From a virus: DNA of 29,890 nucleotides. A program made the translations under genes and the position numbers. Position 1 is the stretch's first letter, and every line of letters starts with the position of its first letter. Shown in pieces: positions 4,957 to 26,373 of the stretch. Location of the stretch: the IMG/VR virus record IMGVR_UViG_3300025030_000338, positions 1-29,890 of that record. One strand, given 5' to 3'. The notes beneath the pieces are model-generated. The model did not search any database. It was not told where the DNA came from and worked only from the letters and a program-made list of their open reading frames with translations.

Positions 4957-5186
4957 TTATCCATCCCTTCATACCCTTTCAGAATTAACCGCAACTGCTC
5001 CTCAGCGTCCTGACACAGTAAGAGATCCTGCGTCATCGTCTTGATTATGGTCGCCGACGAGGTAGTCTCGGGCAGAGCAGCCGTCCGGTAGATAGTCAAG
5101 CTGAGTGGTGGTGGCGCCGGGCAACGGGTTATGTAGATCGTATCCGTACAGCCGGTCATCAGTAAACACAGTAGGAGCCATCTCAT
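4953..5186 (-). CDS. Rz1: o-spanin, Rz1-like outer-membrane lipoprotein
   Basis: A 77-residue protein with an N-terminal signal ending in the lipobox LMTGC, so Cys13 would be lipidated. A proline run (PAPPPLSL, about residues 22-29) is typical of Rz1 proteins. The ATG at 5186 overlaps the stop of the i-spanin gene (ATGA) and has AAAGGAAGG upstream; the longer in-frame start at 5237 would bury the signal peptide. With the upstream i-spanin it should span the periplasm and fuse inner and outer membranes in the last step of lysis, implying a Gram-negative host. Confidence 0.85.
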   Translation of the reverse strand: MRWLLLCLLMTGCTDTIYITRCPAPPPLSLTIYRTAALPETTSSATIIKTMTQDLLLCQDAEEQLRLILKGYEGMDK

Positions 5187-5536
5187 TGATTCCTTCCTTT
5201 CAGTATTTTGAGCGCCTGTGTGGTCGCGTCGCTGCAATCCTCAGGCCAGTTATCAAACATTTCCTTGAGCTTCCGGGCGGTGTCGGCCTGTCTCTTTTTA
5301 GTCTTCGATAGCTCCACGGTTGTGGCGGCCAACCTCGCATCTTGCGCCTTGGACACCGCTGTGATTGATGCGAGCTGATTCTTCAGACCTTGCCCTTCAA
5401 GCTGAGCAGCCTCAAGCCGAAACATCTGGAAACGCAAGAATAGGCTTACTCCTGCGAGCACGGCGAGCAGTAGAATACAGAACGCCCTCCACGGGTTATC
5501 GGTGACGAACTTGATGGCTAGGTAGGCGAGTTCCAT
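5183..5536 (-). CDS. Rz: i-spanin, Rz-like inner-membrane protein
   Basis: A 117-residue protein with one N-terminal membrane segment (about residues 17-36) followed by a long charged, Ala/Gln/Lys-rich helix (about 40-95) expected to form a periplasmic coiled coil. This is the standard Rz layout: anchored in the inner membrane and binding the o-spanin through its C-terminus. The start overlaps the upstream stop (TAATG) and the end overlaps the o-spanin start. Confidence 0.83.
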   Translation of the reverse strand: MELAYLAIKFVTDNPWRAFCILLLAVLAGVSLFLRFQMFRLEAAQLEGQGLKNQLASITAVSKAQDARLAATTVELSKTKKRQADTARKLKEMFDNWPEDCSDATTQALKILKGRNQ

Positions 5537-11292: not shown

Positions 11293-11681
11293 GAGAAAAA
11301 TGTGTGACTTTTTAACTTGGTGGTGTGTTAATTTAGTACATGGAAAGTTCTTTACATTACTTTTTTGTGGGTTGGAATTTTCTGAGGGCTGTGATTTTTC
11401 ACAACAAAATCAAATAGTTAGGAACTTTACAACCTCTTTCTGTGAACTCCGTGTATTTCGCAACCCATGATAATGGGTTGGGGGTGGTGCGATCAGCACC
11501 CCCCAACTGCTTTCCATAAAGTGAGCGTAGCGAATTTACTTAATGCTGTAGATTGTATGACGTACGAGAAGCGAAGCGCGTCGTGATTTGGTCGCCTGTT
11601 GACGTAAGCGGAGCGAGCGTGAACGTGGTAGGCGATTTACCTAATCCCCGAACGAAGTGAGGGGCGCGAAAACACGGACAC
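11293..11681. other. Gene-free stretch with hairpins and GCGNAGCG motifs
   Basis: No convincing gene on either strand. It contains an 8-bp perfect hairpin (CAACCCAT, GATA loop, ATGGGTTG) at 11461-11480, followed at once by a second imperfect GC-rich hairpin (11481-11514) built around GGTGC/GCACC. From 11520 to 11665 there are several copies of a GCGNAGCG-like core flanked by short inverted arms, for example CCCC/GGGG around GAACGAAGTGA. Two rightward AAAGTTCTTTACA-like and AACTTTACA strings (about 11344 and 11421) resemble the phage -35 element, but no rightward gene follows. Confidence 0.5.
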
Positions 11682-11706
11682 AAAAAAGCCGGGTGATTAG
11701 CCCGGC
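11682..11706 (-). terminator. Rho-independent terminator of the second leftward operon
   Basis: On the leftward strand a perfect 6-bp stem (GCCGGG/CCCGGC, 7-nt loop, 11688-11706) is followed by six T residues (11687-11682). It lies about 75 bp after the last gene of the 15.4-11.8 kb operon and separates it from the late promoter. Confidence 0.85.
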
Positions 11707-11780
11707 CCTGGTTGATTTATTCCTCGTTTATTGCTGTCTAAGTATCAAAATAACTACTGTTCCCAGCGCAATTAACAGGA

Positions 11781-14712: not shown

Positions 14713-15357
14713 TTAAATCCTTTCCCCGTTTATTTTGTACTCATCATCATCATTATTCTCCAGATAATCCCTGGCGTTTTCCTCCGATGTATCCCAGTTG
14801 TAAGCATCCTCCAGCTTGTCATATATCCAGTCCGCAAAAGCTCTAAATGCTTGGGTAATAATCTCTTCCGCGTCGGCGGTCATTTCTTTGCCGTCCTGAC
14901 GTTCCACCGTCACCTGCATACATCCAGAGTGGTAATAGTGTCCGCGCTGATCTGTTGAGGCGGTGAGCTGGTAAAAATTCCTACTTTGCACCCTTTGTAA
15001 GTCTTTTACTATCCGGTGCAAGGTGGTGTCCTGGGGTGCGTAGGCTTTAACCGCTTTCAGCGATCCGGCTTTATACCGATAATTACCCTCATAGCAGGCG
15101 CCGTCGCCTTGATGCCAAAACCCCGAATAATAGATATTAGGGCTATAAGTTGTTTCGCCCTTGCTATTTTTACCTGTCCTAGTGTTTATATCTAAGCCAA
15201 ACAGGTCTGCAATCATGGCGGCGCCCTTATATACCCATTCAGCACCACCAAAAAACTCACTACTTACTTGACACTGTTCTTCAACCAGTTTCTGCTGCAC
15301 TTTTTCCGGGAGTTCCGAAAATTTGTAAACCGGATAAATGTCTGTTTGTTTTCTCAC
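14713..15357 (-). CDS. Conserved phage protein with YSGFxxQGDGAxxxG motif
   Basis: A 214-residue protein starting at GTG (15357), with GGAGG 10 nt upstream. The motifs YSGFWHQGDGACYEG and NFYQLTASTDQRGHYYHSG mark a family common in phages and phage islands, sometimes listed as an antitoxin-like protein. The last 30 residues are very acidic (ENNDDDEY). Function is not established. The stop of the 22-residue upstream peptide lies 2 nt before this GTG, so translation is likely coupled. Confidence 0.7.
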   Translation of the reverse strand: MRKQTDIYPVYKFSELPEKVQQKLVEEQCQVSSEFFGGAEWVYKGAAMIADLFGLDINTRTGKNSKGETTYSPNIYYSGFWHQGDGACYEGNYRYKAGSLKAVKAYAPQDTTLHRIVKDLQRVQSRNFYQLTASTDQRGHYYHSGCMQVTVERQDGKEMTADAEEIITQAFRAFADWIYDKLEDAYNWDTSEENARDYLENNDDDEYKINGERI

Positions 15358-15359
15358 TT

Positions 15360-15428
15360 TTAGTTACCTCCTAAGATATCGATCATACACCAAGCCAAAA
15401 ATAAAACACCGCCGACGATCAAAAGCAT
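15360..15428 (-). CDS. 22-residue hydrophobic peptide, first ORF of the second leftward operon
   Basis: ATG at 15428 with GAGGTGA just upstream, ending at 15360. The peptide is almost entirely one membrane helix (LLIVGGVLFLAWCMIDIL). It lies just after the promoter at 15467-15495, and its last codons contain the Shine-Dalgarno of the next gene, so it could be a small membrane protein, a coupling leader or both. Confidence 0.55.
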   Translation of the reverse strand: MLLIVGGVLFLAWCMIDILGGN

Positions 15429-15466
15429 AGTCACCTCACACAATTTAATGTTTAAAGTACAGGTAG

Positions 15467-15495
15467 ATACTACCGTGGTTTGTGTAGTTTGTCAA
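15467..15495 (-). promoter_or_regulatory. Strong sigma70-type promoter of the second leftward operon
   Basis: On the leftward strand TTGACA (15490-15495), a 17-nt spacer and TAGTAT (15467-15472). Initiation near 15460 would leave a leader of about 30 nt before the 22-residue ORF. Confidence 0.8.
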
Positions 15496-15499
15496 GTTT

Positions 15500-16130
15500 T
15501 CCGCAAGGTCAAATATAGGCCCTATAATTAAGTATAATTAGGTATAACTTCACCCCACAATAATATCACGTTTAGGCTCGACTTTTCGCAGTTAAGCCTG
15601 GTGGTTAAGCCTACCACTACAAAACCAGAATACATATAATATAGAAGATAATATCATGCTCAAACGTGTGGTTGGGTGGATCGTGATAGCGCTTTTTAGG
15701 TGATTCCAGTGGGTTATGGCGTTGTGTGGGATATCAATAGTATGTGCAAAACACCTTCGTGATAGTACTCCAGGGGTAGGTAAGTGCCAGAAAAACAAAG
15801 AAAAGTAGGGCTGTTTGGTGGTATGTAGTATTCTAGTAAGAAAAAGAACAGTACCACGATTGAAGAGCCAATATGTTCATATGGTAGTATATACATTCTT
15901 ATTGGCACAAAGCCACGCCGAAAAACAGTCGTAAGAACGTATTATACTCGATATGAACGTATTGGCTCTTTGTTGGTACCTCTGTTCTCGTTTTCAAACT
16001 AGAATACTATTTTATCTTCTCCTCTGCGCCGACCCGCCTCTATTGGGCATCCAACCCACTATCACGTTAGTTTTTTTCTATTTTGTGTGTTACTATTAAA
16101 GGGCTTTTACCACGGCTTTTCAAATTTGAC
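15500..16130. other. Divergent gene-free control region
   Basis: About 630 bp between the leftward promoter at 15467 and the rightward promoter at 16131, AT-rich and without a convincing ORF. It contains tandem TATAATTA-like strings (15521-15550), a GTGGT/ACCAC hairpin around TAAGCCT (15601-15617), and a large inverted repeat at 15826-16009 listed separately. This is the best place in the window for a replication origin or for operators controlling the two divergent early operons. Confidence 0.5.
15826..16009. repeat. Large imperfect inverted repeat, arms of about 80 bp
   Basis: The left arm starts at TAGTATTCTAGT (15826) and the right arm ends with its exact complement (15998-16009). Inside, GAACAG, GTACC, AAGAGCCAATA, GTTCATAT, AGTATA and TTCTTA recur in order on opposite strands, leaving a central unpaired part of about 30 bp. 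Candidate origin hairpin, regulatory cruciform or a MITE-like remnant. Confidence 0.75.
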
Positions 16131-16159
16131 TTGACACCTTCTGAAAACACCCTTATTCT
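16131..16159 (+). promoter_or_regulatory. Strong sigma70-type early promoter
   Basis: TTGACA (16131-16136), 17-nt spacer, TATTCT (16154-16159), about 30 bp before the first rightward gene. A second TTGAC lies directly upstream (TTTGACTTGACA), as in front of the scaffold gene. Confidence 0.8.
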
Positions 16160-16190
16160 ACCAAAAACACCACTTAAAAAGGAGTAAAAC

Positions 16191-17258
16191 ATGGCCTACC
16201 CAAAAAACGACGCTCTGCGTAAATTCATCATCGACTGTGCATCTGCATTTACGCCGCTCCGTACTATAGGAGACCCATCTGTGGCTAAGATGGTGGCCGC
16301 AGAACTGAAAAAAGAATTTCCTGCCCGATCTGACTCGTCGCTATATCAAATCACCTGTTACTATCTGAGGGGCGGCAACAAGAAAACTAAATCTGACTCC
16401 AGGCGCACATACACCGCCCGTGAGTTGGCTCACATTGATCTGATGTCGTCTAAGGACCGATCTGCATACGCCACCGCGTCTGGGAGAACACTACGGGCTG
16501 TAGACGCGGCTCTGAGCCGGTATAGAAAAGGTATGGATGATTACGCAAACTCAGCACCCTTTTCCGGATCTATGGCTCTTGCCGACATACAAAAACAAGG
16601 GTACATCAACTTCAGTAATACCTCTCACCTAAGTATTTATGGCTTTACCCGCGAGTCTGTGGCGGCTGCCAGGGCATTTCTTGCGCATCCTTACGGCATA
16701 TCACTAAGAGCACCTAACATCCTGTACCATACAGTAACTAAACGCCGTTACGCTATGAGTGGGTCAGAGCAGCAGATGCTTTTAACCGACCCGAAGAACT
16801 TTCTTCGTGAGCGCGCTGACGAGATAAAAGCTGGCTGGGTCTGCGCTAATGTAGATCCTGTAGCCGATGGCTCGTTTGACAGCGCCCTCGACGAGATGCC
16901 GTCAACAAAGGCATACGAGCGGCGTAAGATTGGTAAAACAGTACACTCCCTGGCGGAGAGACTCACTTCTGTTCTACAGACCCCTGGTTTGGTGGTGGCT
17001 AAAAATACAGTAGAGTACAGTAGCCTGGACACGCTGCGTGTGTGGGTGAACTGTGCTCTCGGTAATGCTGCGCTGGGGTTCAACCCATCAGACCCGTCTA
17101 CGTATATAGACGACACCAAACCGGCTTTGTGTGCCGAGGATAAACATCTACGCATGGTTAAGCCTCGCGTAGAGAGTGGCCCTCTAAACCCCGACAAACC
17201 TTTTAACCCGTCAGAAAAAGCCTTGGCGGCGGCGTTAAGGATTCTTAAAAAGAGATAA
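16191..17258 (+). CDS. 355-residue protein of unknown function, first rightward gene
   Basis: The ATG is preceded by AAGGAG at 7 nt, and the gene sits directly after a strong promoter, so it is probably expressed very early. The N-terminal 75 residues look helical, and a basic stretch GGNKKTKSDSRRTYTAREL (about 64-82) could bind nucleic acid. A segment with RTLRAVDAALSRYRKGM follows. The C-terminal third is mixed. No family or catalytic motif recognised. The stop codon lies in the first unit of a 16-bp A-rich tandem repeat. A role in host takeover or replication initiation is possible from position but unproven. Confidence 0.75.
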   Translation: MAYPKNDALRKFIIDCASAFTPLRTIGDPSVAKMVAAELKKEFPARSDSSLYQITCYYLRGGNKKTKSDSRRTYTARELAHIDLMSSKDRSAYATASGRTLRAVDAALSRYRKGMDDYANSAPFSGSMALADIQKQGYINFSNTSHLSIYGFTRESVAAARAFLAHPYGISLRAPNILYHTVTKRRYAMSGSEQQMLLTDPKNFLRERADEIKAGWVCANVDPVADGSFDSALDEMPSTKAYERRKIGKTVHSLAERLTSVLQTPGLVVAKNTVEYSSLDTLRVWVNCALGNAALGFNPSDPSTYIDDTKPALCAEDKHLRMVKPRVESGPLNPDKPFNPSEKALAAALRILKKR

Positions 17259-24229: not shown

Positions 24230-24367
24230 ATGCTGAGACTGAAACCTAACGGAGTGCTGGAGAAGGTCAAAGGGCCGACGGTGTTAGAACTAGATGAGAA
24301 ACTTGATTGCGCCCGACGCAGACAAAAGGAAGCACGTAAAAGAGTGCAGAAGGAGGTTGATAGGTGA
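24230..24367 (+). CDS. Small basic helical protein
   Basis: A 45-residue ORF following the zinc ribbon and overlapping the next gene (GTGA). The C-terminal half (CARRRQKEARKRVQKEVDR) is strongly basic and helical, fitting nucleic-acid binding. It carries the ribosome binding site of the nuclease gene inside its end. Confidence 0.6.
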   Translation: MLRLKPNGVLEKVKGPTVLELDEKLDCARRRQKEARKRVQKEVDR

Positions 24368-26373
24368 TCTATGCCCACCAAATAACATTCCAGCAGCTCC
24401 AAGCGTCCAAGGAGGCAGTCTGCGATCTTCAGGGCCGGATGATCGGCGGTCCTGATACCAAGATGGAATCCGACTGGACGAAGTGGGTGTTGTGGCAGAA
24501 AGCGATCCAGAAAGCCCCTGTTGGCTCAGTACCACCTGATGTTATGGCGTATTTTCAGAAGACCAAAGGACTGACAAAGGTGCCTACACGAATCGATGTT
24601 GAGGATGCAATTTTAATAACACCAGCACCACCACCATACAATATCGAAAGCCAAGGACTCCAAATGACTCAAGCCAAACCCTTCACCCCGCCAAGATTCA
24701 CATGGTCCTACACCTCAATGGCTGAGTTCCTGACCTGTCCCGCGCAGTGGGCCGCCAAGCGCTATTTCAAGACCATCAAAGATGTCGAGTCTGAGGCGAT
24801 GCGGGTCGGCAACATGATCCATGAGACAGCGGAACACTATCTGAAGTCCAAGATTGGCCAGACCTTCAAACCATCCAGCATCCACACACAGTACCTGCCG
24901 GTTGTCCAGAAATACTGCGACGCCTTGGTCGCCTCCGGCGCCGAACTGCACGTCGAGCGCGAGATGTGCTTCGACAAGCAGATGAAGGTATCAGCATGGA
25001 AGGCTTGGGACACTGTATGGGTCAGATCGAAAGCGGACGTACTTGCCCGAAAAGACCAGCGCCTCTCGATTGTAGATTGGAAAGGTTTGGCACTAGACAC
25101 ACCACTACCCACCCCAACTGGGTGGACAACTATGGGTGATGTGTGTGAGGGAGATAAAGTTTTCGGTGCCGACGGCAAACCGTGCACTGTTACCGGGAAA
25201 TCTAAAATAAAAAATTTACCTTGTTATGAGTTGACCTTTTGTGATGGATCTACAATAACATCCGATTGTGAGCACCTATGGGAAGTTCGGGAGCGTACAA
25301 GCAAAAATGTATATAAACCTAGAATAGTATCCGCCCACGATTTATGTGCTCTAACTGAATTTAAGAAGCTAAATGTGCGTTTATCACAACCACTACTGCC
25401 CGTCGGCGAACCAAGTGGCTTACCCTTCTATACTATCGGGTGCTGGCTTGGAGACGGCAAACACACAGACGGCTCGATTAGCAAAGGCGACCAAGGTATA
25501 TTCGACCACATTATTGAAGAGGGCCTGTTTGTAAAAGAGCCTCAGAAGTGTATAGAAGGTAAGTGCCCTACGCGGACGGTTATCGGGCTTAGAACGCTAC
25601 TTGGCAAAGAAGGATTACTTGGGAATAAACACATCCCAGCGAGGTGGCTCAGATTTTCGTATGAGGATAGGGTAGCGCTCCTCCAAGGTTTAATGGACAC
25701 TGATGGGTCATGGAACTTTACACGGACGCAAGCAGTATTTTGTACTGTGAACAAATCTTTCGCTGACGAAGTTTTTGAGTTATTGGTGACTCTAGGCCAA
25801 CGCCCTACCATACACACTATTGATGGTTTTGGTTTCGGAAAAGCGGTCAGATCATATGATATAACATTCACCCCCATAGGACTCACACCATTTCGGGCAA
25901 GTATTAAAAAAGAGAAGTTTGAAAAGTACCCTTCTAAAAACCCTCGTACGTATCGCCAGATCAAGTCGGTAAAGTTGGTGCGCTCTGTACCGACCCAGTG
26001 CATCAAGGTGGACTCTTCCGACAGCATGTATTTGTGCGGAAAAGCGATGATCCCCACGCACAACACAGGCAAGTATAAAGAAGACTTCCTCCAGCTCAAG
26101 ATGTTCGCAGTGTTCGCTGCTCTGACCCCAGGCTTTGAGGACGTTCAGGAGTTCGACCCGAAGTTTATCTTCACCAAAGAGGCAGCACCCAAAAACATTC
26201 TGCGTCTGCCCGAGCCGATAAAGAGGAGTGAACTCAAAGGTGTACTCGGGGAGATCCTCGGCGTGGTGCGTAGGATGGAGGCTGCCTGGGAGGGTGGTAA
26301 TTTTCCCGCAAAGCGGAACGGGTTGTGCCGCAATTACTGCGCAAATACGGACTGCGCACATTGCGGCGGTTAG
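24364..26373 (+). CDS. RecB/Cas4-like PD-(D/E)XK nuclease interrupted by an intein
   Basis: A 669-codon ORF starting at GTG with GGAGG 7 nt upstream. Residues 1-100 form a separate N-terminal part of unknown role. The nuclease follows: SYTSMAEFLTCP (about 115-126), GNMIHETAEHY (His153), an RSKADV acidic motif (Asp225) and the catalytic SIVDWK-TGK split by the intein between Lys240 and Thr568. Cys125 and the C-terminal cluster CRNYCANTDCAHC suggest a 4Fe-4S cluster as in AddB and Cas4 nucleases. After splicing the protein has 342 residues. It probably processes DNA ends in recombination or replication. An internal ATG at residue 101 could also give a nuclease-only form. Confidence 0.85.
   Translation: MIYAHQITFQQLQASKEAVCDLQGRMIGGPDTKMESDWTKWVLWQKAIQKAPVGSVPPDVMAYFQKTKGLTKVPTRIDVEDAILITPAPPPYNIESQGLQMTQAKPFTPPRFTWSYTSMAEFLTCPAQWAAKRYFKTIKDVESEAMRVGNMIHETAEHYLKSKIGQTFKPSSIHTQYLPVVQKYCDALVASGAELHVEREMCFDKQMKVSAWKAWDTVWVRSKADVLARKDQRLSIVDWKGLALDTPLPTPTGWTTMGDVCEGDKVFGADGKPCTVTGKSKIKNLPCYELTFCDGSTITSDCEHLWEVRERTSKNVYKPRIVSAHDLCALTEFKKLNVRLSQPLLPVGEPSGLPFYTIGCWLGDGKHTDGSISKGDQGIFDHIIEEGLFVKEPQKCIEGKCPTRTVIGLRTLLGKEGLLGNKHIPARWLRFSYEDRVALLQGLMDTDGSWNFTRTQAVFCTVNKSFADEVFELLVTLGQRPTIHTIDGFGFGKAVRSYDITFTPIGLTPFRASIKKEKFEKYPSKNPRTYRQIKSVKLVRSVPTQCIKVDSSDSMYLCGKAMIPTHNTGKYKEDFLQLKMFAVFAALTPGFEDVQEFDPKFIFTKEAAPKNILRLPEPIKRSELKGVLGEILGVVRRMEAAWEGGNFPAKRNGLCRNYCANTDCAHCGG
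25084..26064 (+). mobile_element. Class 3 intein with LAGLIDADG homing endonuclease
   Basis: Residues 241-567 (327 aa) of the nuclease ORF. The block A region LALDTPLPTPTGW starts with Gly instead of the Cys or Ser nucleophile. The class 3 WCT set is complete: Trp306 in block B (CEHLW), Cys546 in block F (QCIKVD) and Thr568 as the first residue after the intein. Block G is MIPTHN. The endonuclease has both motifs, TIGCWLGDG (about 357-365) and LLQGLMDTDG (about 439-448). It sits exactly in the catalytic DWK-TGK motif. Base composition is more AT-rich than in the exteins, consistent with separate origin. Confidence 0.88.

Follow-up and report, generated by a model that had tools for sequence, protein, structure and literature searches.

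The question raised by this locus is whether a long inverted repeat lying between two diverging gene blocks of a phage starts replication, switches transcription, works as RNA or is left over from a mobile element. The window analysed here was the whole 29,890-base phage record from IMG/VR, IMGVR_UViG_3300025030_000338. Its left block, on the minus strand, carries the terminase, the portal and other structural genes, and its right block, on the plus strand, a family-A-type DNA polymerase and a PD-(D/E)XK nuclease. A divergent non-coding gap of 833 bp (15358-16190) separates the structural from the replication genes, an arrangement that we counted in favour of an origin or switch; relatives also have the gap. 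We infer an early/late timing for the two blocks. The gap is flanked by genes 14713-15357 (minus strand) and 16191-17258 (plus strand), and the only open reading frames of at least 60 aa inside it were minus-strand frames of 68 and 64 aa. As a separate observation, the nuclease gene (24364-26373) contained an insert at about residues 241-566, absent from the closest relative and with a weak LAGLIDADG match, which is probably an intein. The polymerase genes of several relatives (L011, L012, L014 and L051) were likewise interrupted, at or near residue 467 or so in the numbering of the window polymerase, and in L051 the polymerase formed one continuous frame of 996 aa, which suggests inteins as well.

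The inverted repeat in the divergent gap

The inverted repeat is real. The first-pass annotation had described arms of about 80 bp around a 30-bp centre, and this was borne out by a left arm at 15826-15901 (plus strand), a centre, or loop, of 30 bp at 15902-15931 and a right arm at 15932-16009 (minus strand). In a gapped arm alignment, the arms were complementary at 65 of 72 aligned pairs and scored 91, whereas the best of 200 shuffles reached 37, and a minus-strand self-comparison gave 70% identity over 184 bp (E 1.5e-9). The DNA fold of the repeat reached -47 kcal/mol (z -11.2, with none of 200 shuffles as good), supporting the hairpin or cruciform potential that had been proposed, and the RNA fold gave a z of about -12 on either strand. 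When 627,544 bases from 32 phage sequences were scanned for repeats, this one was the strongest in the window and the only one there scoring at least 45. In a composition-regression fold scan it ranked ninth among 993 stretches, since stretches of 120 nt cannot contain a repeat of 184 bp. The same scan placed the hairpins of the relatives L008 and L014 third of 1996 and first of 661, respectively, and the L012 hairpin was not among the 14 listed best stretches. Elsewhere in the window, the segment 11361-11784, which includes the non-coding gap 11471-11780, also ranked among the best-folding stretches; it was 93% identical to locus L003 of the closest relative, reaching 96-97% per 100 bases at 11401-11700.

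A consensus scan placed a leftward promoter-like site (TTGACA-17-TAGTAT, 15467-15495, minus strand) and a rightward one (TTGACA-17-TATTCT, 16131-16159, plus strand) on the two sides of the repeat, each with 10 of 12 matches. The two strong divergent promoters of the first-pass annotation were thus recovered as two diverging sites with about 635 bp between them, close to the gene-free stretch of about 630 bp that had been described. Their strength was not borne out, the scan of the region having returned three sites compared with a mean of 2.5 in shuffles, a count not above that of the shuffles.

Sequence constraint and palindromes in relatives

The closest relative found was a single contig, IMGVR_UViG_3300025030_000259 (G001; loci L003, L007, L016 and L017). 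Compared with L003, the arms of the window presented 2 differences in 154 bases (1 in 76 on the left and 1 in 78 on the right) and the 145-bp left flank (15681-15825) only 1, while the centre differed at 6 of 30 positions and the next gene at 43 of its 163 fourfold-degenerate sites. In the outer segments of the gap, 25 of 143, 20 of 180 and 14 of 181 bases differed. The differences between arms and centre (p 0.00026) and between arms plus left block and fourfold sites (p 3e-18) were significant. Because the arms and left flank remained nearly unchanged while the centre and the fourfold sites diverged, arms and flank are under strong constraint through purifying selection. One of the two arm changes, at 15971, gave L003 a G-C pair where the window fold has G-T, and the other, at 15885, turned a mismatch into a pair by reading of the two folds. 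The stem mismatches were likewise conserved between the window and L003, so at this distance selection acts on the base sequence as well as on the pairing. We considered it unlikely that recent recombination had produced the conserved block, since the divergent centre sits inside it.

The first rightward gene (16191-17258, plus strand) encodes a 355-aa protein, a candidate binder of the region. It had no Pfam or PHROG match, and in its low-confidence model (mean pLDDT 52.8) the N-terminal helices look HTH-like; a structure search with that model against PDB returned 45 weak matches, none at E<=0.001, and no known initiator family was recognised in Pfam, PHROG or PDB. Members of this gene family came from seven records (window, G001, L008, L012, L014, L009 and L056/L059). 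L009 ends within the gene, leaving five lineages with upstream DNA when the window and G001 are counted as one. No family member was confirmed among 38 candidates in genome_contigs, and the L008 member retrieved no relatives from annotated phages.

In each gap, the 120-nt stretch that folded best occupied the same relative place across lineages, and in four of the five lineages an inverted repeat, strong in three and moderate in L008, was located 210-274 bp before the HTH-like gene. The centre lay 274 bp before the start codon in the window, 273 in L003, 228 in L014, 217 in L008, 246 in L012 and 210 in L059. Arm scores relative to the shuffle maximum were 94/42 in L003, 52/30 in L014 (with a perfect stem of 26 bp), 41/33 in L008 and 77/35 in L059, and fold z values over 200 shuffles were -10.3 for L014, -4.0 for L008 and -5.5 for L059. 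The syntenic gap of L012 had no significant dyad (score 25 against a shuffle maximum of 31; z -1.8). L059 was looked at once the pattern was already known, and its hairpin was at the predicted place. The stems were unrelated in sequence between lineages; the window repeat, searched in eight related records, matched in G001 only. Mismatches in six dyads comprised 23 plus-strand wobbles, 23 minus-strand wobbles and 59 transversions, and this even wobble split favours a dyad in DNA over a folded RNA strand, so the pairing looks DNA-level rather than RNA-level. Unrelated palindromes at the same spot suggest a replication start or control switch in which shape counts for more than letters. The repeat had been called the best origin candidate in the window, and that claim gains support from its constrained arms and free centre and from the same-place palindromes in most relatives.

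Dyads also occurred in further polymerase relatives. L035 (arms 5171-5251 and 5279-5358; score 72, shuffle maximum 37) and L051 (arms 305-403 and 429-532; score 86, shuffle maximum 38) carried repeats of 188-228 bp before other genes with HTH matches; a search for relatives of the L051 HTH gene led nowhere. Seven repeats scoring at least 60 were found in the 32-sequence scan (window, G001, L059, L035, L051, L050 and L042), which covered neither the loci L010, L015, L055 and L058 nor the final 2,233 bases of the G002 contig and 1,372 bases of the G006 contig. Six of them were in non-coding gaps, the exception being L042, and the L050 repeat was followed by a gene not recognised as HTH by inspection. 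The divergent gaps of L037 (two), L040 and L043 presented no strong dyad. Other repeats were observed in these sequences: L042 contained a 33-bp perfect inverted repeat (923-1023) in coding-like sequence, adjoining repeats that resemble a pentapeptide-repeat gene, and L011 an exact 44-bp inverted repeat with copies about 1 kb apart (1335-1378 and 2392-2435). Phage HHU4 (L069), a distant polymerase relative, had strong intergenic repeats at about 4544, 9992 and 24968, one of which lay within a divergent gap just short of 1.2 kb, and Xp15 had no repeat above 42; most of the genome was scanned in both phages.

Motifs and known origins

The window gap contained three copies of CGTGATAG, two of them direct in the left flank (15682 and 15758) and one inverted at 16059-16066 (minus strand). 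This motif was present once exactly in L012 and in L014, at a distance of 131-144 bp to the left of the hairpin, and was not found in L008 or L059. Within the arms, four putative mirror-image half-sites of type AATAYGTTCWTA, a pattern derived from these very copies, were spaced 20 bp apart, two in the left arm (15870-15901, plus strand; starts 15870 and 15890) and two in the right (15932 and 15952, minus strand). Exact copies of TAAGCCTAAG and ACATTAGA were located left of the hairpin in L008, L012, L014 and L059, with ACATTAGA again inside each of these hairpins at 0-1 mismatch; the window had neither. TAAGCCT occurred twice in the window, which was not above chance for the whole window. In L051 a 12-base repeat occurred four times, with its hairpin built from two of the copies, and L035 carried four copies of ACTAGAG. 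In five of seven lineages (L014, L012, L059, L035 and L051), the gap held a single rightward TATAAT, placed 60-106 bp to the left of the centre of the dyad; the window and L008 had none at that shared place. DnaA-box-like sites were limited to window/L003, L012 and L014. The cumulative GC skew of the window reached its minimum at 16746, near the repeat but confounded with gene direction, and the minima of G001, G002 and G006 were away from the region. GC skew gave no clear backing for an origin and was dropped as evidence.

Iteron origins of plasmids and phages combine repeats, an AT-rich box and an adjacent initiator gene. Repeats, an AT-rich box and an HTH-type gene were likewise side by side here, most clearly in L051 and L035, whose three to four repeat copies resemble iterons. 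The window differs in having two direct CGTGATAG and four mirror-image half-sites within a dyad instead of a direct-repeat array, and in an adjacent gene that was not recognised as a member of a known initiator family.

The diversity of c2-type origins is reportedly the subject of a paper by Rakonjac et al. from 2003. According to PMC7150918, the lactococcal c2-type (Ceduovirus) origin separates early from late modules that diverge from it and has PE1 and PE2 on its two sides; it occurs in three types with no similarity between groups, supports plasmid replication and makes an untranslated transcript, PE1-T. In the c2 record, early promoters were at both ends of the variable part. Both systems share about 0.6-0.8 kb of non-coding DNA separating divergent modules and sequence types that are dissimilar between groups; in the window, structural genes are on the left (minus strand) and the polymerase and nuclease on the right (plus strand). 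In contrast, no similarity to a c2, bIL67 or 923 type origin was found, window positions 15300-16300 having no match in the phages collection, which includes c2, and c2's own region had no comparable inverted repeat (best score 36). A c2-type origin would be expected to yield an untranslated transcript from PE1 across its variable region and to sustain plasmid replication in the absence of phage proteins; a transcript and plasmid replication are demonstrated for c2. Because c2 has no comparable repeat and no sequence relationship, we classified the window element as one that may work like the c2 origin in layout, and not as a member of the c2 type.

Competing explanations and meaning

The place of the dyad, its repeats, the AT-rich box and the HTH-like neighbour fit an origin joined with an early/late switch. 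We therefore tentatively favour, at somewhat less than even probability, the dyad as the centre of a cis-acting element, most probably a replication origin combined with such a switch. The HTH-like product of the first rightward gene would bind the repeated half-sites in arms and flank; the dyad would help the duplex to open or extrude beside the AT-rich box, allowing replication priming, and the same binding would control both outward promoters. Over long times the stem could be rewritten provided that the dyad persists. Weighing most against this reading are the skew minima of G001, G002 and G006 away from the region and the failure of the searches to recognise a known initiator; the lack of a significant dyad in L012, of the TATAAT box at the shared place in the window and L008, and of strong dyads in the divergent gaps of L037, L040 and L043, together with the restricted distribution of DnaA-box-like sites, also count against it. 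A regulatory dyad with no replication role, either a multi-site operator or a torsion-sensitive cruciform through which the HTH-like protein switches the early and late promoters, is possible rather than probable. It would account equally well for the sequence constraint, and the position between divergent promoter-like sites, the mirror-image half-sites 20 bp apart with three CGTGATAG, and the HTH-type gene adjoining the dyad in L035 and L051 all agree with it. However, arms of 80-110 bp exceed the needs of an operator, and a full turnover of the stem between lineages would be odd if its sequence were read.

It is improbable that the hairpin functions as an RNA, for instance a primer or a decoy transcribed from a promoter to its left. 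Its RNA fold is as strong as noted above, five of seven lineages have the rightward TATAAT left of the dyad, and the c2 transcript offers a parallel; yet the wobble mismatches were divided evenly by strand beside the many transversions, no convincing promoter was seen just to the left of the window repeat, and a search for a structured RNA gave no match in 4227 Rfam families at gathering score. A scan for intrinsic terminators, covering loops of 3-8 only, listed none at the repeat, whose stem base is A+T-rich, and a terminator was rejected. With its long terminal inverted repeats, short centre and perfect outer 12-bp ends (TAGTATTCTAGT/ACTAGAATACTA), the element resembles a MITE-like remnant, as the first-pass annotation had suggested, or an insertion-sequence remnant. 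The only candidate target-site duplication was a TA indistinguishable from the palindrome itself, the flanks GGTATG and TTTTAT having no common direct repeat and no longer duplication. Furthermore, the repeat was single-copy and fixed in position: the syntenic G001 repeat aside, none was found in its own record or the eight related ones, contig scans with an exact 20-base pattern found none in genome_contigs and one match, the syntenic one, in viral_contigs, and phages and plasmids gave no match. The arms are also constrained, and relatives carry unrelated palindromes at the same site, leaving a mobile-element remnant very improbable.

Beyond the combined origin and switch in this phage, the dyads may form a family of about 90-250 bp at a fixed place, with a stem wholly rewritten between lineages, perhaps via within-hairpin template switching, and with shape as the inherited signal, a proposal that we consider rather unlikely as it stands. 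Searches among open-licence papers yielded no report of such a dyad family. To our knowledge, origins are unknown for most uncultivated tailed phages. If the proposal is true, a dyad recognised by its place and shape, rather than by its sequence, would make it possible to locate their origin or switch and would constitute a directly testable case of DNA structure conserved without sequence conservation.
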